Assembly: GCF_002078355.1 (NCBI RefSeq)
Contig: NZ_CP015363.1
Location: 434,001-498,000 of the forward strand
DNA length: 64,000 nucleotides
Direction: 5' to 3'
From: Ferroplasma acidiphilum
GTDB taxonomy: Archaea > Thermoplasmatota > Thermoplasmata > Thermoplasmatales > Thermoplasmataceae
Below, piece after piece: positions 8,663 through 33,939 of the stretch. How positions within the stretch are numbered: the first letter of the stretch is position 1; each line of letters opens with the position of its first letter. A model generated the notes under the pieces. It worked only from the letters and a program-made list of their open reading frames with translations. It was not told where the DNA came from and ran no database searches. Position numbers and translations under genes: made by a program.

Positions 8663-10486
8663 ATGGGTACATACAGAGGGCTTTACGATCTGCATGATGC
8701 ATACAGATCTGATTATTTAAAGATTGCAAATCACGGTTTTATTGCAAATAACCGCACTGCAGCACTTGTTGGTATAGATGGAACTATTGACTGGGCATGT
8801 TTGCCCAACTTTAATTCAAATCCTGTCTTTGATTCTATTCTTGATGCCAGAAATGGTGGTTATTTCAAGACCAGCCCTGTAATGGAAAGCAATGTCAACC
8901 AGTATTACGAAGAATCAACCAATATACTTATAACAGAGTTTGTAAATAACAATCAGGTAATTTTAAGGCTCACAGATTTTCTTCCAACATCATCATATAG
9001 CACAATAACGTTTCCGGAGATACACCGGCTAATTGAGGCCCCATATTCTGATGTTGAAGTATCAATAGATATAAAATCGCATTTTAACTTTGGCTCAGGG
9101 AAAACAAACATAACCAGGGATAGAAATGGTTATATTTTCTCATGTACAGATGACACACTTGGAATTTCCACAAATCTTAAATTGAAAAAGGGAAATGGAA
9201 ATGTATACAGCAGGATAAAAGTGGAAAAAGGTTCACATGAATGGATTGTTGTATTAAGCGGAGTAAGGCAAATTGGCAATGTAAGGCAATATGAATCATA
9301 TACACGGCTGGAAGAAACAAGAAATTACTGGAGTGCATGGGCAGGAAAAATAAACTATAGTGGATTATATTACGATCATGTAATACGATCTGCACTTACA
9401 TTGAGAGGGCTATTTTATGACCCTACAGGAATGATGGTTGCAGCACCAACAACAAGCCTCCCTGAAATTATTGGTGGAGAACGAAACTGGGACTACAGGT
9501 ATACCTGGATAAGGGATACTGCATATGTTGTAGAGGCACTTTCACTTATAGGGTTAAAGGACGTAGCTACAAAATTTCTCTATGATATCATGTCCATAGT
9601 TCAAAAGGATAAGAAGGTCAAAACTATATATCCGGTAAATGGGGATTCAAAACTGGAGGAGAAAAAGGTAAATTTATCCGGGTATATGGATTCAATTCCT
9701 GTAAGGATAGGAAACGAAGCATCGGAGCAGTTGCAGATAGACCAGTACGGCTCCATAGTGAATGCTGTATTCAGGTTCCATGAGGCAGGTGGGCTTGTTA
9801 CCACTTACCTGTGGGATTTTCTCATCGAAATACTGGATACACTGAAAGATATCTGGAAGCTGCCTGATTCCAGCATCTGGGAATTCAGGTCAGAACCAAA
9901 GCATTACCTGTATTCAAAATTAATATCATGGAGTGCATTTAACCGGGCAATAAAAATGGGCAGGGAACTGGGCTATAGTGCCCCATATAGAACATGGCAT
10001 AAAATAAGGGAAGAGATAAAGAATGAAATAATGGAAAAGGGGTATAACCCGGATGTAAAAGCATTTACCCAGTATTACGGGAGTGACCAGATGGATGCAT
10101 CGGTATTGAGAATGCCATTGACAGGCATTATTAGTGCCAAAGATCCGCGTTTTGTCTCCACTCTTGCCAGGGTTGAAGCGGAACTGAAAAATCCATGTGG
10201 AATGTTTATTAGATATCACAGCGATGATGGACTGAAAGGCCATGACAATGCATTTCTTTTACTGTCTTTCTGGTATGTTGAGGATTTGATATTATCAGGG
10301 CGTATTATGGAAGCAAAGGAAACATTTGAAAATATACTTGACCACTCTAACCACCTGATGCTTTTTTCTGAGGAAATTAATTTTAATGATTGCAGGGAGA
10401 TGCTTGGCAATTTCCCGCAGGCAATTACCCATCTTGGGGTTATAAGGGCAGCAATAAAACTTGATGAAGCATTAAGGGGCAAATAG
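8663..10486 (+). CDS. Glycoside hydrolase family 15 (glucoamylase or trehalase)
   Basis: A 607-residue cytoplasmic GH15 enzyme (no signal peptide). An N-terminal beta domain (about 1-230) precedes the (alpha/alpha)6 catalytic barrel. Conserved stretches include GERNWDYRYTWIRD, the probable general acid Glu in IWEFRSEP and the general base pair in FSEEINFND, followed by LGNFPQAITHLG. GH15 members hydrolyse starch ends, dextrins or, in Thermoplasma and Sulfolobus relatives, trehalose. Because otsA and otsB follow, a trehalase role is attractive but unproven. CTTTATATATT lies about 26 bases before ATG, suggesting a leaderless transcript. Confidence 0.88.
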   Translation: MGTYRGLYDLHDAYRSDYLKIANHGFIANNRTAALVGIDGTIDWACLPNFNSNPVFDSILDARNGGYFKTSPVMESNVNQYYEESTNILITEFVNNNQVILRLTDFLPTSSYSTITFPEIHRLIEAPYSDVEVSIDIKSHFNFGSGKTNITRDRNGYIFSCTDDTLGISTNLKLKKGNGNVYSRIKVEKGSHEWIVVLSGVRQIGNVRQYESYTRLEETRNYWSAWAGKINYSGLYYDHVIRSALTLRGLFYDPTGMMVAAPTTSLPEIIGGERNWDYRYTWIRDTAYVVEALSLIGLKDVATKFLYDIMSIVQKDKKVKTIYPVNGDSKLEEKKVNLSGYMDSIPVRIGNEASEQLQIDQYGSIVNAVFRFHEAGGLVTTYLWDFLIEILDTLKDIWKLPDSSIWEFRSEPKHYLYSKLISWSAFNRAIKMGRELGYSAPYRTWHKIREEIKNEIMEKGYNPDVKAFTQYYGSDQMDASVLRMPLTGIISAKDPRFVSTLARVEAELKNPCGMFIRYHSDDGLKGHDNAFLLLSFWYVEDLILSGRIMEAKETFENILDHSNHLMLFSEEINFNDCREMLGNFPQAITHLGVIRAAIKLDEALRGK

Positions 10487-10514
10487 ATATATTTAATAAT
10501 GTTTTAATCAGGTA

Positions 10515-11867
10515 ATGTATTATAAGAGTATGAAGAAGATACTTGTGGTTACCAGCCGTGCACCATTTTCATACCGGTATGCTCCGGGAGGTGATGTCAG
10601 GATATATAATGTAGGTGGAGTTGCCACAGCCCTCAGCACAATGCTTAAGGGAACCGGAGGCACTTGGGTATGCTGGGGCGATGGAAAGAATGACATGGCA
10701 CACCAGGAGGAAACTACAGATGGGTATAAGATAGCAAGGGTATTCCTAAACAAAACTGAAAAATTCGGGTTTTACAATAGCTATTCCAACAGGGTTTTAT
10801 GGCCATTATTCCACTATTTTAGAAACAATATACATTTTGACTCCACAGCTTTTAAGTATTATTATATTGCAAATGAAAAATTTGCAAAAAAAATAAAGGA
10901 AAATATAACGCCGGATACAATAATATGGGTGCATGACTACCAGCTTATGATGATCCCGTCAATATTGAGAACTATGGACATATCCAATTATATAATATTC
11001 TCATGGCACATCCCATGGATATCTCCTGAATTTTTCAGCATACTCCCCGAAGCAAAATTTCTCGCACAGAGCATTTCAAAATCTAATCTGGTAACATTTC
11101 ATACCAGGCTGTATGAGAAGAATTTTTTCAATACTCTGGAGTACCATGAAATAAAAGTTAAAAATAGATTAAAAACTCTTGCAATTCCCCTGGGGATCGA
11201 TAAAAATTTTTTTCACCTGTCTAAAACCATGGCAATTAAACCAAAAAAAGAAAAAGCATCAATTATATTTTCAATAGACCGCCTTGATTATACAAAAGGG
11301 CTTCTACAGAGGGTAAAGGCTATTGAGAAGATTCTCAGTTACAGAAAGGACCTTATAGGGAAATTAGTATATTTAATGAACGTTACACCAAGCCGTACAG
11401 GCATTCCAGAATATGATGAAATTAAAGAGCAACTGGAGATGGAAGTGGGAAGGGTAAACGGTCTTTACAGTACAACTTCATGGGTGCCTATAATTTACAT
11501 ATACAGGAAAATATCACAGAAATATCTGGTTTCATTATATGCACGAAGTGACATAGCATTGATTACCCCATTAATGGATGGTTTAAACCTTGTTTCCAAA
11601 GAGTTTGTAGCAACTACGGATAAGGGTGTGCTTATACTATCAAAATTCGCCGGGGCTGCGGAATATATGGACGGAGCGTTGATAGTAAACCCTAATAATA
11701 TAAATGAACTGGCAAGTGCCATAGTAAGGGCAATGGAAATGGATGGAGAGGAAAAAATGTCACGGCTCAAAAGGATGAAAAAGGATGTATATGTAAAGAA
11801 CAGTAACTGGTGGTATAAGAGGATATTAACAACAGCAGAAAGGCAATGGCATGTATCAGGAGAATAA
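10515..11867 (+). CDS. otsA: Trehalose-6-phosphate synthase (GT20)
   Basis: A 450-residue GT20 enzyme that joins glucose from a nucleotide sugar to glucose-6-phosphate. Seen are the N-terminal GGVATAL loop, WVHDYQLMMIPSILR and HIPW for the acceptor side, the DRLDYTKGL motif that binds phosphate and nucleotide, and DGLNLVSKEFVA that holds the donor. ATG 10515 and ATG 10530 are both possible starts; the second is right before KKILVVTSR, the first strand. It sits 28 bases after the GH15 gene and overlaps otsB by 17 bases, giving a synthesis operon. Confidence 0.9.
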   Translation: MYYKSMKKILVVTSRAPFSYRYAPGGDVRIYNVGGVATALSTMLKGTGGTWVCWGDGKNDMAHQEETTDGYKIARVFLNKTEKFGFYNSYSNRVLWPLFHYFRNNIHFDSTAFKYYYIANEKFAKKIKENITPDTIIWVHDYQLMMIPSILRTMDISNYIIFSWHIPWISPEFFSILPEAKFLAQSISKSNLVTFHTRLYEKNFFNTLEYHEIKVKNRLKTLAIPLGIDKNFFHLSKTMAIKPKKEKASIIFSIDRLDYTKGLLQRVKAIEKILSYRKDLIGKLVYLMNVTPSRTGIPEYDEIKEQLEMEVGRVNGLYSTTSWVPIIYIYRKISQKYLVSLYARSDIALITPLMDGLNLVSKEFVATTDKGVLILSKFAGAAEYMDGALIVNPNNINELASAIVRAMEMDGEEKMSRLKRMKKDVYVKNSNWWYKRILTTAERQWHVSGE

Positions 11868-24279: not shown

Positions 24280-25124
24280 AAATTTCTATGCTATTCGATA
24301 TAATGCGCTGGGAGGAAAGGGCAATATTGAAAGCTCTCCAGGATAAAAATGTGGAAGTACAGCTGTATAACGTAAAAGAAATGAACCTTGACCTACAGGA
24401 TCCAAACTACGACTTCGGCGATATTTCACTGCAGAGAAGCACTGGATATTACAGAAACCTCCATTCAACAGCATATGTTGAATTTACCGGGAACCGTATT
24501 ATCAACGATTTCAATTCAACGATTGTCACAGGAAATAAGATGTTTACCTCACTTCTGCTTTCACAGAAGCGCATCAGGATTCCAAAAACATTTGTATCCT
24601 TTTCAAATGAAAGATTTCTGAAATCGTTTAAAGAAGATTTTAATGGCAGAGCTGTAACCAAGCCGGTTACCGGAAGCTGGGGCAGGATGATTTCACTGCT
24701 TAATGATTATTACGCAGCGATGGATGTATCGGAATATAAGGATTACATGTATCCCTTATACCAGATAAACTACACACAGGAATATGTAAATGATTTCGGG
24801 CGTGATCTCAGGGTATTCATTGTAAATGACCAGGTAATTGCAGGCATATACAGGTATAAATCCGGAGAAGACTGGAGAACCAATACTGCACTTGGGGGCC
24901 GTGCTGAACCACTTAAAATTACCGGGGAAGTAGAAGAAATAGCACAGAAAGTTTCAGCTGCACTTGGCCCTGGAATCTATGGAATGGATATACTGGAATC
25001 AAAGGATGGCTATTTCGTGAATGAGGTAAATGGAAATACTGAATTTAAAAATACTGTACCGGTTACCGGCATCAATATACCGGATTACATCGCTGATTAC
25101 CTGATTTCAGAGGCAAGGAAATGA
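24276..25124 (+). CDS. lysX: LysW ligase (LysX/ArgX-type ATP-grasp)
   Basis: A 282-residue ATP-grasp ligase of the RimK-like group. It joins the amino group of alpha-aminoadipate or glutamate to the C-terminal glutamate of LysW. Seen are the ATP-lysine region (AVTKPVTGSWG), the metal-binding Asp (YGMDILESKDGYF) and NEVNGNTEFKN. The last segment is the part that helps distinguish LysX from ArgX, but I cannot settle the specificity by eye. It has ATGA overlaps with both lysJ and lysK. Confidence 0.87.
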   Translation: MKISMLFDIMRWEERAILKALQDKNVEVQLYNVKEMNLDLQDPNYDFGDISLQRSTGYYRNLHSTAYVEFTGNRIINDFNSTIVTGNKMFTSLLLSQKRIRIPKTFVSFSNERFLKSFKEDFNGRAVTKPVTGSWGRMISLLNDYYAAMDVSEYKDYMYPLYQINYTQEYVNDFGRDLRVFIVNDQVIAGIYRYKSGEDWRTNTALGGRAEPLKITGEVEEIAQKVSAALGPGIYGMDILESKDGYFVNEVNGNTEFKNTVPVTGINIPDYIADYLISEARK

Positions 25125-26188
25125 ACCCAAAGGATATGCTCATAGAAATGCTCAATATATATTCCCCCAGTGGAAAGGAAGGGGAGATAGCAAAGCTTCT
25201 TAAGGAATACATGGTAGATCTGGATTTTGAGGAGCCGGTAATAGACGACCAGCTAAATGTCATATCGGTGAACGGGAAAGGCAGCCCTGCAGTATTCCTC
25301 TGTGGCCATGAAGATACTGTGCCGGGAATTCTTGAAGTAAAATCAGATGGAAACATGGTGTATGGCAGGGGCGCAGTGGATGCAAAATCATCCCTGCTGG
25401 CATTAATCCTTGGGGCCAGAAAAGCCATGGACAATGGCTTTAAAGGCAAACTGCTCGTATCAGCTGCTTCAGGCGAGGAAAGTGACAGCAAGGGAATAAA
25501 TAATATTATGGAAAACTACCACGGGTACGATTATGCAATTTTCGGTGAGCCCGGTGGATCAATGAATATCACTGCGGGTTACAAGGGAAGATTATTAATG
25601 AAGGTAGACGTAAAAACTGCAACCCACCATGCCAGTTCATCCTGGATGGAGTCAAATGCAATAGACCTGTTAATGGGATTGTGGGTAAAAATCAGGGAAC
25701 AGTATGGCAACAATAAAGATTTTAACTCTGTTAGTGCAGGCATAACCAGATTCAACGGCGGTGAATATGATAATATGACACCTGAACATGCATCCATGTA
25801 TATAGACATAAGATATCCCAAATCAGTTTCAGAAGATGAGCTTACAGGTGAACTGAAGTCCTATATGGAAGAGTTGCTAGTTAAAAATTATTCATATACT
25901 ATAGAGAGCAGGACGTATCCCTATATATCTGACATGAAAAGCTCCCTCGTAAAGTCATTTAAATCAGGAATATCCAGGAATGGAATGGCCCCCCGCCTCA
26001 TTTTTAAAAGTGGTTCAGGTGATATGAATAATCTGGGGCATGTGTGGAAAATCCCCGCAATTACCTATGGCCCTGGAGATACACAGCTATCACATACACA
26101 GAATGAAGTAATAGATATCAGGGATCTGTACAAATCCATAGATGTTATATCAGATTCACTGGTCTCCATGCAGCTGGATCAGGCTTAG
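25121..26188 (+). CDS. lysK: LysW-lysine/ornithine hydrolase
   Basis: A 355-residue M20-family zinc carboxypeptidase that frees lysine or ornithine from LysW. Metal ligands are seen as His in LCGHEDTVPG, Asp in GRGAVDAKSS, the Glu pair in GEESDS and Glu in FGEPGG, with the late His in QLSHTQNEVID. It ends the operon. Its 3' end overlaps by 33 bases the end of an unknown gene on the other strand. Confidence 0.88.
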   Translation: MNPKDMLIEMLNIYSPSGKEGEIAKLLKEYMVDLDFEEPVIDDQLNVISVNGKGSPAVFLCGHEDTVPGILEVKSDGNMVYGRGAVDAKSSLLALILGARKAMDNGFKGKLLVSAASGEESDSKGINNIMENYHGYDYAIFGEPGGSMNITAGYKGRLLMKVDVKTATHHASSSWMESNAIDLLMGLWVKIREQYGNNKDFNSVSAGITRFNGGEYDNMTPEHASMYIDIRYPKSVSEDELTGELKSYMEELLVKNYSYTIESRTYPYISDMKSSLVKSFKSGISRNGMAPRLIFKSGSGDMNNLGHVWKIPAITYGPGDTQLSHTQNEVIDIRDLYKSIDVISDSLVSMQLDQA

Positions 26189-26932
26189 ATAACTATCTAT
26201 TGCTTCCCTGTTTTTATATAATTCCATTGCCACTTCCACCGGAGATTTTTTATATGTGCATTTTAATGTGCTGGATATATTGAAGTTATTTAATTTATAC
26301 AGGATATAAACAATATAAGCAGTGAATACATCCTTATAGGCATTGTTTTCACCATATAACTCTGAAGATAGTGAAAGCACATGGCGATGCCACTTCGATG
26401 AAGGTTCTGCAGAATTAATAATTTCCAGGAAAAACCGTTTGCATGAATCATTATCAATTCCAGATTTTCCTATATACTGTTGTATTTCAATTTCGAATTT
26501 TTTATCCGGCGAGAATTCATTGTAATATTCAAAAGCCAAACTTGCAGCCAGTGGAAATGCGTTTACAATGGAAATAAATAAAAAATCAGAAAGAATCCTG
26601 TACCTCTTCCTCTCCTTCGAGAATATGCCTGTGAAAATTCTAGCTTCCCTGGCATTTTTATGTTTTTTCCAGTAAATTAATGAAGAATATTTATATACCG
26701 CAAGGGCTTGAAGCCAGTTAATGCATGAATCCGTATAGGATATTGGGCTATCTCCAGAAATATTTTTAATTGACCTTGCCATGCCCCTGTAGAAATGTAA
26801 AGGCATTATATGGCCTCTGATGCCCGCAATAAAAACAAGAAAATTTGATGAATTATGTTTCATTGTTCCTATAATAGATTTTTTGAAAATCGGTGAATTT
26901 TTACTGTTGTTTTTATCTGGAGCAAAAAGCAT
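26156..26932 (-). CDS. Unknown helical protein
   Basis: A 258-residue, mostly helical and basic protein I do not recognise. Clusters of Tyr, Lys and Asn are seen, with no signal peptide and no strong membrane helix. The ATG at 26932 has AAATATTTATT about 26 bases upstream, so it probably has its own leaderless promoter. It lies 40 bases after the end of the fused hydroxyacyl-CoA dehydrogenase gene on the same strand, and its tail overlaps lysK by 33 bases. No function is assigned. Confidence 0.6.
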   Translation of the reverse strand: MLFAPDKNNSKNSPIFKKSIIGTMKHNSSNFLVFIAGIRGHIMPLHFYRGMARSIKNISGDSPISYTDSCINWLQALAVYKYSSLIYWKKHKNAREARIFTGIFSKERKRYRILSDFLFISIVNAFPLAASLAFEYYNEFSPDKKFEIEIQQYIGKSGIDNDSCKRFFLEIINSAEPSSKWHRHVLSLSSELYGENNAYKDVFTAYIVYILYKLNNFNISSTLKCTYKKSPVEVAMELYKNREAIDSYLSLIQLHGDQ

Positions 26933-26971
26933 CAATCTATATCAAAAAATAAATATTTATTATTATGGTTA

Positions 26972-28900
26972 TTAATTCCCTTTGTAATCCGGTTTTCTTT
27001 TCTCAAGGAATGCCTTAACGCCCTCTTTCATGTCGTTTCCTGCATATAGCATGCCCATTGAAAGTGCTTCTTCATCAAGATTAATTGTTGCTGTATTATA
27101 TATAAGGCGCTTGGCTACATAAACGGATGCAGGCGATATCTTCTCTGAAAGGTCTTTAGCAAGTTTCATTGTATTTTCTTCCAGCTCTTCTTTAAATAGT
27201 CTTGTAATTATTCCGTATTCATATGCCTTTTCACCGCTAATCCTCTCGCAGGTCAATATCATGTCCATTGCCCTGGAAATTCCTATAAGGTTTGGCAGCC
27301 TCTGGCTTCCTCCGTATCCAGGTATAAGTCCAAGGGATGTCTCGGGGAATCCTATTACCGAATCCGGCAAAGACGTTCTTATGTCGCATGCAAGTGACAG
27401 TTCAAAGCCACCTCCAAGGACATATCCACGCAGCTGTGCAATGAAAATCTTATTCATCCTGGTAATTCTGTCGAATATGCTTTCCCCTGTATTTGATATT
27501 TTCATAAACATATATGGATTGCTTATAAACTGTGACAGGTCTGCTCCTGCAGAGAACGCCCTTTCATTTCCTTTTATTACTACCACATTTACATCATTGG
27601 CTTCTTCTATGGCATCAAGTTGTTTGTCCAGTGCCTTCAGGAGCTCAAAGCTCATTAAATTATTTTTCCCATTTTTAATTGTGATCACACCAACCTTGCC
27701 ATCTTTGCTATAATCAAGAATCCCTGATTTTTCTTCCTTTTTCACTTCAACAGGTTTTTTATTGAAAGACTCCTTCATTTTATGGGACTCTATAGTTTTT
27801 GATGGCTTAAAAACCTCTATTTTATACTGTTTGTAAAGGTTATTAAGTGTCTCAAGCACCTCATCGTTGCTCAATCCATTTGCCACGGTGATTGGCCCGA
27901 ATGGCCTGTTTAGCCCGTATTTTACTCCAATTTCTATATCGTCAGGTACTGCAACCCCGTCTTCTATAAGCTTTGTAGCTTCGTTGATTTCCAGGGCAAA
28001 CATATCCATAAGGCTAATTTTTTCGCTTTCGTTGGCATCCGGGATAATAGCTTTTCCATTTTCCCATTTGTATATGCCACTGCCTGTTTTAAGCCCGAGA
28101 TGCTTTGCCTCTATGAAACTATCAAAGGCATGGCATTTTCCATAATCCGGAGACAGCTCTTTTCCATAATACTGGAGAGAATCAACAACTGTATCCAGGC
28201 CTACATAGTCGAACAGCTGGTAGGGACCCATGGGCAGCCCCTGGGATTTAAAGTATTTGTCAATTGCCTCAGGGCGGTCTATTTTATTGCCATATGCATT
28301 GCAGAGTAATAGCATCTCGGGGGCAGATATTCTGTTGACAACAAATCCTGCTTCATCCTTAAGGACTTTTATGGGCTTTTTCCCTATTTTTCCAGCCAGT
28401 TCATATATCTCTTCAACGTATTCCATGGAAGTTTTATCTCCCTTTATTACCTCAACAAGCTTCATGAGTATCGGCGGATTAAAGAAATGCATTCCAACAA
28501 GCCTTTCAGGATTTTTTATTTCTTCTCCCATTTCAGTAATTCTAATATTTGATGTGTTGGAGGCAATTATTTTATCCGTATTCTCTGCTATCTCCTTCAG
28601 CACCTTGACTTTAATATTATAAATTTCAGGTACAACTTCTATTGACAGATCTACATTTTTTACTGCTTCTCCAATATTATTAAAAAATTTGATATTGTCC
28701 AGAGCTGCTTTTTTAGCTGCATCATTAATCTTCCCCGATGCAATGAGTTTGTCCAGGCTGCCATTAATGCCCACTTTTGCCTTCTCTATAACTTCCGGAT
28801 AAAAATCTTCCAGATTCACCTTATATCCATTTAATGCAAAGACTTCAGCTATGCTATGACCCATTACACCTGCGCCGATTACCGCTACCTGTTTAATCAT
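26972..28900 (-). CDS. Fused 3-hydroxyacyl-CoA dehydrogenase / enoyl-CoA hydratase
   Basis: A 642-residue bifunctional enzyme. The N-terminal half has the NAD fold (GAGVMGHSIAEVFALNG), ASNTSNI, the catalytic His in GMHFFNPP and two C-terminal dimerisation helices (to about 375). A Lys/Glu-rich linker (about 375-395) leads to a crotonase domain (about 400-642) with oxyanion-hole segment AFSAGADLSQF and GFPETSLGLIPGYGGSQRL. The order dehydrogenase-then-hydratase is typical of archaea and is the reverse of FadB. It does two successive beta-oxidation steps and is divergent from the acyl-CoA ligase operon. Confidence 0.9.
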   Translation of the reverse strand: MIKQVAVIGAGVMGHSIAEVFALNGYKVNLEDFYPEVIEKAKVGINGSLDKLIASGKINDAAKKAALDNIKFFNNIGEAVKNVDLSIEVVPEIYNIKVKVLKEIAENTDKIIASNTSNIRITEMGEEIKNPERLVGMHFFNPPILMKLVEVIKGDKTSMEYVEEIYELAGKIGKKPIKVLKDEAGFVVNRISAPEMLLLCNAYGNKIDRPEAIDKYFKSQGLPMGPYQLFDYVGLDTVVDSLQYYGKELSPDYGKCHAFDSFIEAKHLGLKTGSGIYKWENGKAIIPDANESEKISLMDMFALEINEATKLIEDGVAVPDDIEIGVKYGLNRPFGPITVANGLSNDEVLETLNNLYKQYKIEVFKPSKTIESHKMKESFNKKPVEVKKEEKSGILDYSKDGKVGVITIKNGKNNLMSFELLKALDKQLDAIEEANDVNVVVIKGNERAFSAGADLSQFISNPYMFMKISNTGESIFDRITRMNKIFIAQLRGYVLGGGFELSLACDIRTSLPDSVIGFPETSLGLIPGYGGSQRLPNLIGISRAMDMILTCERISGEKAYEYGIITRLFKEELEENTMKLAKDLSEKISPASVYVAKRLIYNTATINLDEEALSMGMLYAGNDMKEGVKAFLEKRKPDYKGN

Positions 28901-29110: not shown

Positions 29111-30688
29111 ATGGCTGATTTTAAGTTAACGATAAATAATCTTCTTGATAGTGCAGTTCGGGCAAATGGAGACCAGAAAATTATCTATAAGGATTTGCAG
29201 TTAACATATAATTCATTTTACAAAAACGTCAAAAATTTTGCAGCCAATCTTGTAAAGATAGGCGTTAAACCCGGTGATAGGATAGCAGTAATTGATTACG
29301 ACACTATAAATTACATGTATTGCTATTACTCTATTCCAATGATTGGCGCAGTGATACATATGGTAAACATCAGATATCCTCCAGAAATACTGTATTATAC
29401 CATAAAAAATTCAGAGGATACCTATATTGTAGTTAATTCAGATTTTATGCCACTGTTAATGCAATTTAAAAATATGTTTGAATTCATAAAGGGTTTTATT
29501 GTTTACTCCGAGCACGGGCATGAAAATTATCAGCTCGACAATGTATATTATGCCGATGACCTTTTAAAAGACACAGATTATAATATCACACCTCCGGATG
29601 AGAATGACATGGCTACACTATTTTATACATCAGGAACCACCGGGCTGCCGAAGGGAGTGTATTACAACCACAGGCAGCTTGTGCTTCACAGCATGGCTAC
29701 TGCAGAAGGCCTATCAGATGATCCAATATTGCTTAATAAAACATCTATTCTTCTTCCCCTTGTTCCAATGTTCCATGTACATGCATGGGGCATGCCATAC
29801 TTCGCCATAATGAAAGGATTGAAATATGTGCTTCCCGGAAAATACGAATGGGACAGGATAGTGGAAACAATGGAAAAGGAGCATGTTACCAATTCCGCAA
29901 TGGTTCCATCGATACTGTATCTGCTCCTGCAGGCAAAGAGGGGGCCGGAAGTGCTCGGCAAACTAAAGCTAAAATCAGTTATCGGTGGCGCAGCACTGAA
30001 TGAAGGCTTAGCCAGATCTGCCGAGTCTATAGGCATGTCCCTTGTAACAGGATATGGGATGTCTGAAACCTGCCCTATCCTCACACTGGCCAGTTATACC
30101 AATGATATACTGCCCTTAAGCGAGGAAATAAAGGAAAAATACCGCAGAAAAACCGGTGTACCTGTTCCTATGGTCAACCTGCGTGTTGTTTACCAGGGAA
30201 AAGATGTAGCAAAAGACGATACGGAAATAGGAGAAATAATAGTACAGGCACCATGGTTGACAGCAGGTTACCTGAAAGACCCGGAGAAAACTGCAAAGCT
30301 ATGGATCGACGGATGGCTGCATACAGGCGACCTGGCAACAATGGATAAATACGGATATATAAAAATTGTTGATAGGGAAAGCGATGCTGTAAAATCCGGT
30401 GGTGAATTTATCCCGTCAATGGTTCTTGAGGACCTCATAAGCACCGTTCCCGGAGTAGGAGAGGTTGCCGTAACCAAAAAATCCGATGAAAAGTGGGGTG
30501 AGAGGCCAGTAGCTTTTATAAAAGGAACAGCAACCGTAGAAGCCATAAAAGAACACATGCAGCAATTTGTGGACACAGGGAGAATAGCCAAGTTCTGGCT
30601 TCCGGATGACTATATATTTGTGGATGACTTTGAAAAGACAGGAACAGGAAAAATAAATAAGGTTGTACTTAGAAAAAAATTGGAGTGA
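29111..30688 (+). CDS. Acyl-CoA synthetase (fatty acid-CoA ligase)
   Basis: A 525-residue ANL-superfamily adenylate-forming enzyme. Core motifs are YTSGTTGLPKG, GYGMSETCP, the hinge GDLATMDKYGYIKIVDRESD and the catalytic lysine in GTGKINKVVLRK. Its length and motifs fit medium- or long-chain acyl-CoA ligases that start beta-oxidation. It begins the operon of ligase, thiolase and two acyl-CoA dehydrogenases, with short gaps of 6, 0 and 2 bases. Confidence 0.87.
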   Translation: MADFKLTINNLLDSAVRANGDQKIIYKDLQLTYNSFYKNVKNFAANLVKIGVKPGDRIAVIDYDTINYMYCYYSIPMIGAVIHMVNIRYPPEILYYTIKNSEDTYIVVNSDFMPLLMQFKNMFEFIKGFIVYSEHGHENYQLDNVYYADDLLKDTDYNITPPDENDMATLFYTSGTTGLPKGVYYNHRQLVLHSMATAEGLSDDPILLNKTSILLPLVPMFHVHAWGMPYFAIMKGLKYVLPGKYEWDRIVETMEKEHVTNSAMVPSILYLLLQAKRGPEVLGKLKLKSVIGGAALNEGLARSAESIGMSLVTGYGMSETCPILTLASYTNDILPLSEEIKEKYRRKTGVPVPMVNLRVVYQGKDVAKDDTEIGEIIVQAPWLTAGYLKDPEKTAKLWIDGWLHTGDLATMDKYGYIKIVDRESDAVKSGGEFIPSMVLEDLISTVPGVGEVAVTKKSDEKWGERPVAFIKGTATVEAIKEHMQQFVDTGRIAKFWLPDDYIFVDDFEKTGTGKINKVVLRKKLE

Positions 30689-30694
30689 GAGATA

Positions 30695-31870
30695 ATGGAA
30701 GATGTATACATAGTTGATTATAGAAGAATACCCTTTTCCAGGGCACGTCCCAGGGACCCTGAAAAAGATGTTTATAATGATTTGAGAATGGATAAGATGC
30801 TGTCTGAATTGATCAGGCATTCTGTCAGTGAAACTAAGATAAACCCGGCTGAGATCGAGGATGTTATTACCGGATGTGCTTTCCAGGCAGGAGAAAACTG
30901 GACATATGGTGGCAGGCACCCTGTACTTCTTGCAGATCTGCCGGTCTCAGTTCCTGCAATGTCCCTTGACAGGGCATGCTCATCCTCATTGAACGCCACG
31001 GGCATAGGGGCTCTGGAAATTATGGCAGGCAAAGCAGGCATAATAATTTCGGGCGGAATGGAGCATATGACACATGTGCCACTGGGTGTAGATAACCAGT
31101 TTATAAAACCAAATATGGAATTGATGGCCAACCCGAAGTATTCAAAATTTAATATGAATGTATCATACAATATGGGATTGACCGCAGAAAAACTTGCCAA
31201 GCTAAGGAATATTTCCAGGGATGAAATGGATGAATACTCATACAATTCACACAAAAGGGCAGCAAAGGCTTATGAAGATGGTTTCATGAAAGGCGAAATA
31301 ATGCCCGTTACCGTAAATGGAAATACAATAACCTCAGATCTGGGAATTAGAAAGGATACTACACTGGAGCAGATTAAATCACTGAAGCCAGCATATTCCG
31401 AAGATGGAATAATAACTGCAGCGAATTCTTCTTCCCTGAACGACGGCGCATCCATGGTTATGTTAATGTCAGGGAAAAAATTAAAGGAATACGGGCTAAA
31501 ACCCATGGCTAAGATAGTGGACTTTGCAGCAGCTGGTGTTGATCCTACAATAATGGGCGAAGGGCCTGTTCCTGCTACAAAGAAGGTACTGGAAAGAAAT
31601 AACCTGAAACCGGAAGATATAGATTACTGGGAAATAAATGAGGCATTTGCTGTTGTTGTTTTAAACGCAGTACATGCATTTAACCTGGACCTTAACCGTG
31701 TGAATATTCATGGAGGGGGCATATCTATAGGCCATCCATTGGGAGCAACAGGTGCCAGGATAGCCGGTACACTGGCGAGGACACTTGAGGACAAAAAAGG
31801 AGACCTCGGAATCGCTACATTATGTGTTGGCGGTGGGCAGGGCTATTCAATGCTATTGGAGCGTGTTTAA
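30695..31870 (+). CDS. Thiolase (3-ketoacyl-CoA / acetyl-CoA acyltransferase)
   Basis: A 391-residue thiolase that splits 3-ketoacyl-CoA with CoA. The acyl-accepting cysteine is in DRACSSSLNATG. The other active residues lie in NEAFAVV (His-like helix), GHPLGATGAR and CVGGGQG, all intact. The organisation matches a degradative thiolase in its operon context, but the reverse, biosynthetic reaction is chemically the same. Confidence 0.9.
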   Translation: MEDVYIVDYRRIPFSRARPRDPEKDVYNDLRMDKMLSELIRHSVSETKINPAEIEDVITGCAFQAGENWTYGGRHPVLLADLPVSVPAMSLDRACSSSLNATGIGALEIMAGKAGIIISGGMEHMTHVPLGVDNQFIKPNMELMANPKYSKFNMNVSYNMGLTAEKLAKLRNISRDEMDEYSYNSHKRAAKAYEDGFMKGEIMPVTVNGNTITSDLGIRKDTTLEQIKSLKPAYSEDGIITAANSSSLNDGASMVMLMSGKKLKEYGLKPMAKIVDFAAAGVDPTIMGEGPVPATKKVLERNNLKPEDIDYWEINEAFAVVVLNAVHAFNLDLNRVNIHGGGISIGHPLGATGARIAGTLARTLEDKKGDLGIATLCVGGGQGYSMLLERV

Positions 31871-32950
31871 ATGTTTGAAGAATATGATGAATACAGAAAT
31901 AAAATCAGGGAATTCGCCCTGAAAGAATTTACAGAGGACGTGGCAGCAGATTATGATAGAAAGGAAGCATATCCTGATGAACTGAGAAAGAAATCACTTT
32001 CACTTGGAATAGTTGATATGCAGAACCCGGCAAAGGTAATGATCGGAATTGAGGAGCTCTGCAGGGTTGATGCCGGGCTTGGGATAGCTCTTACTACACC
32101 ATATTTCGGCAGTGAAGTTATAATGCTATTCGGGAGCGATGCGCAGAAAGCCATACTTGAAGATGTTTACAAAGGAAAGTATATACTTGGTCTTGGTGTC
32201 ACAGAACCATCGGGCGGAAGTGATGTGGCTGGATTGAAAACCACAGCAAAGAAACAGGGCAATAAGTATATATTGAATGGTTCAAAGATGTTCATTACAA
32301 ATGGTTCAATAGCTGATTACCTGGTAGTATTGGCAAGAACTTCTGAAGATTCAAACCCCCACCATGGTTTGAGTACATTTCTTGTGAATACAAAATTGAA
32401 AGGTTTCAAGGCAAACAAACTTGTTGACAAACTGGGAGTCAGGGCTACAAATACAGCTGAGTTGCAATTTAACAATATTGAACTGAGTGAGGACGACCTT
32501 ATAGGCGAGGAAGGAAAGGGTTTCTATTATATTATGATGTTTTTCAATATAAGCAGAATTTACGTGGCAGCACAGTCACTGGGAATAGCAAGAGGTGCAT
32601 TTGATAAAATTAAGTCTTACATAAAGGAGAATAACATAAAGGACGAGGAATCAATGTTCAGGCTTTCCGATGTGGGCACAAGGATAGAAGCCACAAGGCA
32701 AATGACATACAATGCCGCTACATACCTGTTTGAATTCAAGCCAAAACCGGAATTGACCAGCATGGCAAAGGCTTATGGAAGTGAAACGGCAGTATATGCT
32801 GCAGAATCTGCCATGGAAATACTTGGCGACCACTCTGCATATGAAGATGTCCAGAGAATATTCAGAAATGCCAAAATAATGGAGATCTGGGAAGGGACAA
32901 GCGAAATAGAAAAGCTGGTAATTGCAAGGTATATATTAAAAGGTGAATAA
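31871..32950 (+). CDS. Acyl-CoA dehydrogenase
   Basis: A 359-residue FAD-dependent acyl-CoA dehydrogenase. FAD-binding segments GVTEPSGGSDVAG and FITNGSIADYLVV are clear. The catalytic base is the Glu of IWEGTSEIEK near the C-terminus. It starts at the base after the thiolase stop. It is followed 2 bases downstream by a second, divergent family member, suggesting a two-subunit enzyme. No electron-transfer flavoprotein gene is in the window. Confidence 0.9.
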   Translation: MFEEYDEYRNKIREFALKEFTEDVAADYDRKEAYPDELRKKSLSLGIVDMQNPAKVMIGIEELCRVDAGLGIALTTPYFGSEVIMLFGSDAQKAILEDVYKGKYILGLGVTEPSGGSDVAGLKTTAKKQGNKYILNGSKMFITNGSIADYLVVLARTSEDSNPHHGLSTFLVNTKLKGFKANKLVDKLGVRATNTAELQFNNIELSEDDLIGEEGKGFYYIMMFFNISRIYVAAQSLGIARGAFDKIKSYIKENNIKDEESMFRLSDVGTRIEATRQMTYNAATYLFEFKPKPELTSMAKAYGSETAVYAAESAMEILGDHSAYEDVQRIFRNAKIMEIWEGTSEIEKLVIARYILKGE

Positions 32951-32952
32951 AG

Positions 32953-33939
32953 ATGAAAGAGGAAAATAATATTCTAAAGGAAACCGTAGCAGAATTCTGT
33001 GAAAAAAATCTCGATGAAAAGAAGATCGAAAACGAAGGAATTAGCAAAGCAACAACAGAACTTCTGGCTTCCCAGGGTTTTCTTGGAGCTACAATTCCAG
33101 CAAAGTATTCCGGTTCTGAACTGGATAATACGTCATATGAAATTATACTTGAAGAAATATCTAAATATTCACCTTCAGTAGCAATGAAAATTTTCATTTT
33201 AAATTCACTGTATTATCCCTCTGTAAAAGGTACATCTGCTGAATCCACACTAACAGATGCAGCATCCGGAAAGCTGGATGTTGCTGTTGATGTTATAGGT
33301 AATGGAAGTGATCTGAAGGAAAATTCAGGGAAACTTTCTGGAACATTAAAAAGTATTCTCGGTACAGATGCTGAGAATATTATATTATTCAATGGAAAAA
33401 CATCAATGGTTTCAGGCAAGTTTAAATCAGCCGCTCGGGATTTCATGGGATTCCGAGGAATGAAATTCGGGGATGTAACACTGGATAATAGCATAACCAT
33501 TCTTGATCAGAAAAGCAGGAAGGATAAAATTATAGAGGAATCATATGGCCCATTGTCTGCAATTGCACTTGGAATGATATCCGGGGCACTTCAAAAAGCC
33601 ATTGATTACACATCTGTGAGAAAAGCCTTCGGCAACTATCTTAAGGATTTTGAACCTATTTCATTCAGGCTGTCGAGATTCAGATCCATAGAATCTGTTT
33701 TAAGAAGTGCCCTTTATGGTGGTGTAGACCCATATTATGCATTTAATCTGGCCATGGAATCCATGGTTGAAATTGCAAGATATTCTGTCAACACACATGG
33801 TGGGTATGGATATTTCCAGGATTTTGGCGTTGAGAAGTTTTACAGGGATTCAATAGTAATGAAATCTATATTTTATGGAAATCAGGAATTGAAAAAACTT
33901 GCCGAACACGTGTATTCTGAAAAAATAAATTTTGTTTAA
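32953..33939 (+). CDS. Acyl-CoA dehydrogenase homologue lacking the catalytic glutamate
   Basis: A 328-residue acyl-CoA dehydrogenase-like protein, shorter than its neighbour. The N-terminal helices and central beta domain are eroded (no clear SGGSD-like FAD stretch), and the C-terminal helices (RKAFGNYLKDFEPISFRLSRFR; NTHGGYGYFQDFGVEKFYRD) are kept. The place of the catalytic Glu (W-E-G-T in its partner) reads FYGNQE, so the base is Tyr. It is probably a structural or cofactor-sharing subunit of a heteromeric dehydrogenase, as in mycobacterial paired FadE proteins. It ends the operon. Confidence 0.82.
   Translation: MKEENNILKETVAEFCEKNLDEKKIENEGISKATTELLASQGFLGATIPAKYSGSELDNTSYEIILEEISKYSPSVAMKIFILNSLYYPSVKGTSAESTLTDAASGKLDVAVDVIGNGSDLKENSGKLSGTLKSILGTDAENIILFNGKTSMVSGKFKSAARDFMGFRGMKFGDVTLDNSITILDQKSRKDKIIEESYGPLSAIALGMISGALQKAIDYTSVRKAFGNYLKDFEPISFRLSRFRSIESVLRSALYGGVDPYYAFNLAMESMVEIARYSVNTHGGYGYFQDFGVEKFYRDSIVMKSIFYGNQELKKLAEHVYSEKINFV

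Follow-up and report, generated by a model that had tools for sequence, protein, structure and literature searches.

Many archaea of the class Thermoplasmata appear, from their sequences, to make an acyl-CoA dehydrogenase (ACAD) from two proteins, each of which carries one half of the grip on the FAD cofactor. In ordinary homotetrameric ACADs, two subunits share each FAD, the one binding the isoalloxazine and the substrate and the other the ADP end; a homotetrameric ACAD of the SCAD type is made of a single protein with both FAD half-sites and has four active sites per tetramer. The two proteins described here are encoded by adjacent genes, A and B, of Ferroplasma acidiphilum, in the 64,000-nucleotide stretch of DNA that we analysed (hereafter, the window), which represents positions 434001-498000 in a genome that consists of a single contig of 1.83 Mb. 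We consider it probable, at roughly 87%, that A (as alpha subunit) and B (as beta subunit) make up a single, obligately heteromeric ACAD, likely an alpha2beta2 complex with two FADs; this is the best reading of the pair because neither an A-A nor a B-B association would complete a canonical FAD site, whereas an A-B association would. While heteromeric ACADs of this kind are already known from steroid-degrading bacteria, the archaeal version has probably arisen separately.

According to PMC11153573, the alpha subunit of bacterial alpha2beta2 ACADs holds the isoalloxazine, the catalytic Glu, and the substrate, and the beta subunit holds the ADP-ribose; the substrates of the Mtb alpha2beta2 ACADs are given as steroid side chains (PMC6678751). 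With regard to archaea, a comparative study of Thermoplasmatales noted that the roles of individual ACAD genes were hard to discern (PMC3750248). An archaeal heteromeric ACAD was not the subject of any title or abstract opening among the literature matches listed, in a search with subscription papers mostly outside its coverage.

Genomic organization of the locus

Both reading frames lie where an earlier note on this DNA, made from the sequence alone, had placed them (Table 1), with B two bases downstream of A; the TAA stop codon of A (32948-32950) is followed by the bases ag and then by the ATG of B at 32953. Spacing between the acyl-CoA synthetase, thiolase, A, and B genes is 6, 0, and 2 bases, respectively, and the operon is of a generic beta-oxidation type. 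Translational coupling of A and B is likely, given the GGTGA inside the end of A.

Table 1. Features of the A-B locus (window positions).
Feature	Positions	Strand	Remarks
3-hydroxyacyl-CoA dehydrogenase / enoyl-CoA hydratase fusion	26972..28900	-	divergent from operon
Acyl-CoA synthetase (AMP-binding)	29111..30688	+
Thiolase	30695..31870	+	directly upstream of A, conserved neighbour; stop codon abuts A start
Gene A, putative catalytic (alpha) subunit, ACAD	31871..32950	+	359 aa
A: TEPSGGSD	32201..32224	+	residues 111-118, flavin-side half-site
A: GSKMFITNG	32279..32305	+	residues 137-145, flavin-side half-site
A: Glu341	32891..32893	+	catalytic base at MCAD/SCAD position (WEGT)
GGTGA, Shine-Dalgarno-like	32942..32946	+	within last codons of A, ahead of B start
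Gene B, putative non-catalytic (beta) subunit, ACAD-fold protein	32953..33939	+	328 aa
B: RKAFG	33619..33633	+	residues 223-227, ADP-side half-site missing from A
B: NTHGGYGY	33790..33813	+	residues 280-287, ADP-side half-site missing from A
B: Phe307-Tyr308	33871..33876	+	one or other at catalytic Glu place, by alignment

A 259-aa ORF (26156-26935, minus strand) between another ORF (25121-26188) and the hydratase/dehydrogenase fusion had no Pfam match at E 0.001. Elsewhere, the same genome carries four other ACAD frames as well as ETF genes, with ETF frames at G000:C1:1176829-1178130 (L058/L059), 9829-11013 (L060/L062), and 1521949-1523042 (L061/L063). Two long ETF frames (614 and 576 aa) have two ETF domain matches each, which suggests that they encode fused ETF proteins; a separate two-frame ETF (280 and 299 aa) is also present.

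Complementary FAD half-sites in A and B

A lacks both RxxFG, where the loop is shortened in many A proteins, and QxxGGxGY; RxxFG and QxxGGxG are motifs that we take, from MCAD and SCAD structures, to be the sites that grip the ADP end of FAD from the neighbouring subunit. In B, by contrast, RKAFG and HGGYG are retained, TEPxxGSD is deleted, KxFITNG is altered, and the catalytic Glu is absent. This complementary split was first noticed in 47 A and 48 B sequences and was then counted with 57 A, 58 B, and 122 ordinary ACADs aligned together, the proteins having been assigned to these classes by profile score rather than by motif; 14 frames were excluded from the motif count, as were repeat loci (L003, L006, L007, L064, L067, L068, and L166-L171). 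On the flavin side, TExxxGSD was present in 57/57 A, 0/58 B, and 122/122 ordinary ACADs, and G.K at the position of KxFITNG in 57/57, 13/58, and 122/122, respectively. On the ADP side, GGxG was found in none of the 57 A proteins, in 58/58 B, and in 122/122 ordinary ACADs, and RxxF in 1/57 A (a chance match, L050), 58/58 B, and 120/122 ordinary ACADs. Thus, at least 120 of the 122 ordinary ACADs retain both half-sites, in a set that is biased in that 85 members came from a pattern search that included HGGYGY and 20 were picked through a match to B; the 17 ordinary ACADs from other sources include three own and six Rhodopseudomonas palustris frames, and those frames keep both halves. Among 20 aligned B proteins, 23 residues are invariant, 13 of which comprise R223, F226, HGGYG (282-286), and six residues within 290-299.

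A Glu at the MCAD position was found by pattern in 57/57 A, 0/58 B, and 87/122 ordinary ACADs (88/122 if E in the alignment column is counted, with A and B unchanged); a Glu in helix G was found in 0/57, 1/58, and 35/122, respectively. Two ordinary ACADs match both Glu patterns and two match neither. The earlier note had described B as carrying Tyr in place of the catalytic Glu and as having no clear FAD segment, and both descriptions stand in part. Absence of the Glu holds throughout the 58 B proteins, as opposed to the 57 A proteins, all of which have it, but the Tyr is alignment-dependent, as the residue that faces the Glu in the window's B is Tyr308, beside a one-residue insertion, in some alignments and Phe307 in others; nor is Tyr conserved, because the Glu column across the 58 B proteins holds F, L, S, G, T, I, M, or V, and never E. 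Similarly, of the flavin-ring segments, B indeed lacks TEPxxGSD and has an altered KxFITNG, in which 13 of 58 B proteins still have G.K, but the ADP-side segments are present in every B protein.

In its N-terminal domain, A is also shorter by about 10 residues at the YGGxG loop (A residues about 45-55); this loop, measured by residue count since a pattern count is unsound for A owing to chance matches to short stretches, has 18-19 residues in 57/57 A, 29-30 in 122/122 ordinary ACADs, and 27-29 in 58/58 B.

Domain content and predicted folds

A matches the N, M, and C domains of the Pfam ACAD families, all over cut-off, and B matches the N and C domains over cut-off, with no match to the M domain at E 0.001. 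AlphaFold2 models (pLDDT 91.2 for A and 87.9 for B) predict confident ACAD folds for both proteins, for B despite the missing M domain match, although the models lean towards this fold because ordinary ACADs sat in both input alignments. Compared with ACAD structures, the A model gave a top-listed match with Z 48.5 and rmsd 1.6 over 356 residues; for the B model the top-listed match had Z 34.4 and rmsd 2.4 over 308 residues, with human SCAD (2vig; Z 33.8, rmsd 2.7 over 312) tied. Across the ACAD structures among the 50 matches listed, the B model aligns over 303-313 of its 328 residues; a bacterial beta chain does not occur among these 50 matches, which is uninformative either way. SCAD/butyryl-CoA dehydrogenases and their relatives (5lnx, 2vig, and 6fah_C) share the fold and are among the closest solved sequence relatives of both A and B.

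Distribution and linkage of A and B

The earlier note had proposed looking for both genes together in other archaea, and this is how they occur. In a sample of 61 genomes (i.e., the window's own and 60 relatives), B was found in 48 (E < 1e-20), and A was present as well in 46 of these 48, with an E value of 1e-85 or better; in the other two, A is either broken (G015, L055) or cut at a contig end (G056, L048). Neither gene was found at those limits in 13 of the 61 genomes, three of which are merely 63-76% complete. A lies immediately upstream of B at 50/50 loci, including the cut locus L048 and three loci with broken frames (L055-L057), and A directly follows a thiolase gene in 37 of 39 longer stretches, among which some places occur twice; the exceptions are L048 (contig end) and L057.

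A scan of the class found matches to the window's B at 1e-20 in 61 of 300 genomes, with a second match in one genome (G039:C6) that is an ordinary ACAD (L183), and A-B pairs were confirmed in two more families of the class, f14 and f31 (L158-L162). In two further genomes, a Thaumarchaeota MAG (L065) and that of a "Euryarchaeota archaeon" (L066), the genes for the synthetase, the hydratase/dehydrogenase, the thiolase, A, and B all share one strand. When the B of L066 was used as query at 1e-25, 29 of 292 genomes in a phylum sample matched, of which 27 belong to the window's family and two to family f4; among 300 genomes from the phylum of L065, the matches were the L065 genome itself and one weaker match of 382 aa (G530).

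In other genera, the best matches to the window's B have 29-54% identity, B evolves faster than A, and B frames are full-length in most genomes. In the window versus L009, the single measurable pair and one with dS near saturation, A had a dN/dS of 0.026 and B one of 0.058; three other pairs showed saturated dS. The pairing goes beyond chance, because B has diverged to this extent and yet is always found beside A, and dN/dS is low for both genes in the one measurable pair.

A number of loci depart from the single intact pair. Genome G013 carries two A-B pairs (G013:C3 and G013:C42; L025 and L038), and L057 represents a second, more divergent pair in G015, in which A is broken. The A, B, and thiolase frames are all broken in the Thermogymnomonas acidicola draft (L055/L068), which may reflect an assembly error, and at L056 two overlapping frames together cover B; either sequencing error or decay could lie behind such frames.

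Relationship to bacterial heteromeric ACADs

As yardsticks we used five bacterial pairs, namely the PimD locus and three more pairs from one R. palustris MAG, and a Rhodococcus plasmid pair, for which the best solved relatives are 4x28_A and the Tcur3483 chains (one partner) and Tcur3481 (the other); we take PDB 4x28 to be ChsE4-ChsE5. All five pairs have the same half-site split as A and B. In the R. palustris locus, PimD (TIGR03203, over cut-off) and its upstream neighbour, a putative PimC (L144), are adjacent and divide the motifs in the same way as A and B, but this pair, unlike A-B in the best trees, falls within the bacterial alpha and beta clades. The alpha gene comes first in three of the five bacterial pairs, as it does in archaeal A-B. 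By contrast, the catalytic Glu is in helix G, the IVD/LCAD position, in 5/5 bacterial alpha subunits and, by the printed alignment, in 4x28_A, whereas it is at the MCAD/SCAD position in 57/57 archaeal A.

Trees of 65, 62, and 61 rows each contained 9 of the 57 A, 9 of the 58 B, and 10 bacterial pair members, together with 37, 34, and 33 ordinary ACADs, respectively. In the 65-row tree the bacterial pairs grouped together; after removal of L043_9056, L004_798, and L117_4708 (long branches or damage), A, B, bacterial alpha, and bacterial beta each formed one clade in the 62-row tree. First AU tests rejected none of three constraints, with p 0.083 when A was joined to bacterial alpha, p 0.47 when B was joined to bacterial beta, and p 0.30 when A was joined to B. 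For the 61-row tree, the bacterial ACADs with the top A-profile scores (L087, L142, and two sequences of L103) were added, L004 was restored, and six redundant rows were taken out. In this tree, for which the sampling was chosen after the first AU result was known, four intact bacterial ACADs form the sister group of A (100/96), B clusters with five intact ACADs from archaea (99/98), and the deepest branches are weak; joining A to bacterial alpha was rejected (p 0.00027), as was joining A to B (p 0.005). B and bacterial beta are apart in the best trees, although joining them was again not rejected (p 0.24). Because of these trees and AU tests, descent of the archaeal alpha subunit independent of bacterial alpha is fairly well supported, and independent descent of the beta subunit is likely.

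One locus from the clade next to archaeal A, in a proteobacterial MAG (L103:5154-7569), holds tandem ACADs, each with both half-sites, which is perhaps what a tandem looks like before such a split.

Discussion

If A and B act as one enzyme, A would supply the flavin ring site, the substrate pocket, and the catalytic Glu, and B would supply the ADP grip only. One FAD and one active site, rather than two, would be expected per A-B dimer because only A-B has both sides, and the whole would likely be an alpha2beta2 complex with two FADs. Such an enzyme would perform the first beta-oxidation step (alpha,beta-desaturation) of its operon and presumably have an ETF as its electron acceptor. The motif split, the predicted folds, the constant pairing, the shared presence or absence, and the operon are what we observed; from these we infer that A and B form a complex, and likewise its stoichiometry, activity, substrate, and electron acceptor.

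Two other readings would deny B a share in the FAD site. Regulatory pseudoenzyme partners occur in other enzyme families, and by analogy A could be a homomer on its own, with FAD held in a non-standard manner, while B acts apart from it as a regulator, a scaffold, or a pseudoenzyme for ETF docking. We regard this reading as quite improbable, as GGxG is lost from all A and kept in all B proteins, and a free regulator has no evident reason to conserve a half-site. That B is a decaying, functionless duplicate of A would fit its lost catalytic residue, the loss of part of its middle domain, its faster evolution, and the broken frames at L055 and L056, yet this seems extremely unlikely: B frames are full-length in most genomes, dN/dS in the one measurable pair is low, the ADP-side motifs are invariant, and sisterhood of A and B was rejected in the 61-row tree, if not in the first tests; moreover, at L055 the thiolase and A are broken together with B, which may be an assembly error.

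With regard to origin, the earlier note had suggested an archaeal counterpart of the mycobacterial FadE pairs. This is apt for how the pair would work, since the mycobacterial ChsE4-ChsE5 and ChsE1-ChsE2 (FadE26-27, FadE28-29) and Tcur3483/Tcur3481 (6wy8/6wy9) are, according to PMC11153573, likewise encoded by two genes with the half-site split of A-B, but it seems not to hold for descent of the alpha subunit, as archaeal A falls outside the bacterial alpha clade. The Mtb enzymes further act on steroid side chains (PMC6678751), whereas A-B belongs to an ordinary beta-oxidation operon. Direct descent of A-B from the bacterial FadE/PimCD alpha2beta2 family, through gene transfer to archaea, would account for the adjacent genes, the shared split, and the gene order common to three of five bacterial pairs, and the first AU tests did not reject it, nor, for the beta subunit, did that on the 61-row tree; nevertheless, we consider it unlikely in light of the different position of the catalytic Glu, the grouping of A and B with separate sets of intact ACADs, and the rejected joining of the alpha subunits. 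We favour, with moderate confidence, a second, independent invention of the split FAD site in archaea from two homotetrameric lineages, one (A) whose intact relatives are bacterial and one (B) from an intact archaeal line, each of which would have lost the half-site that the other supplies.

If true, two inventions would mean that the halving of ACAD active sites is a repeated evolutionary outcome that is not tied to steroids, and the archaeal pairs would give an independent replicate for the question of why heteromeric ACADs evolve. A heteromeric enzyme would also account for two separate ACAD annotations where one enzyme exists, and its simple operon would be a setting in which heteromeric ACADs of archaea could be tested.
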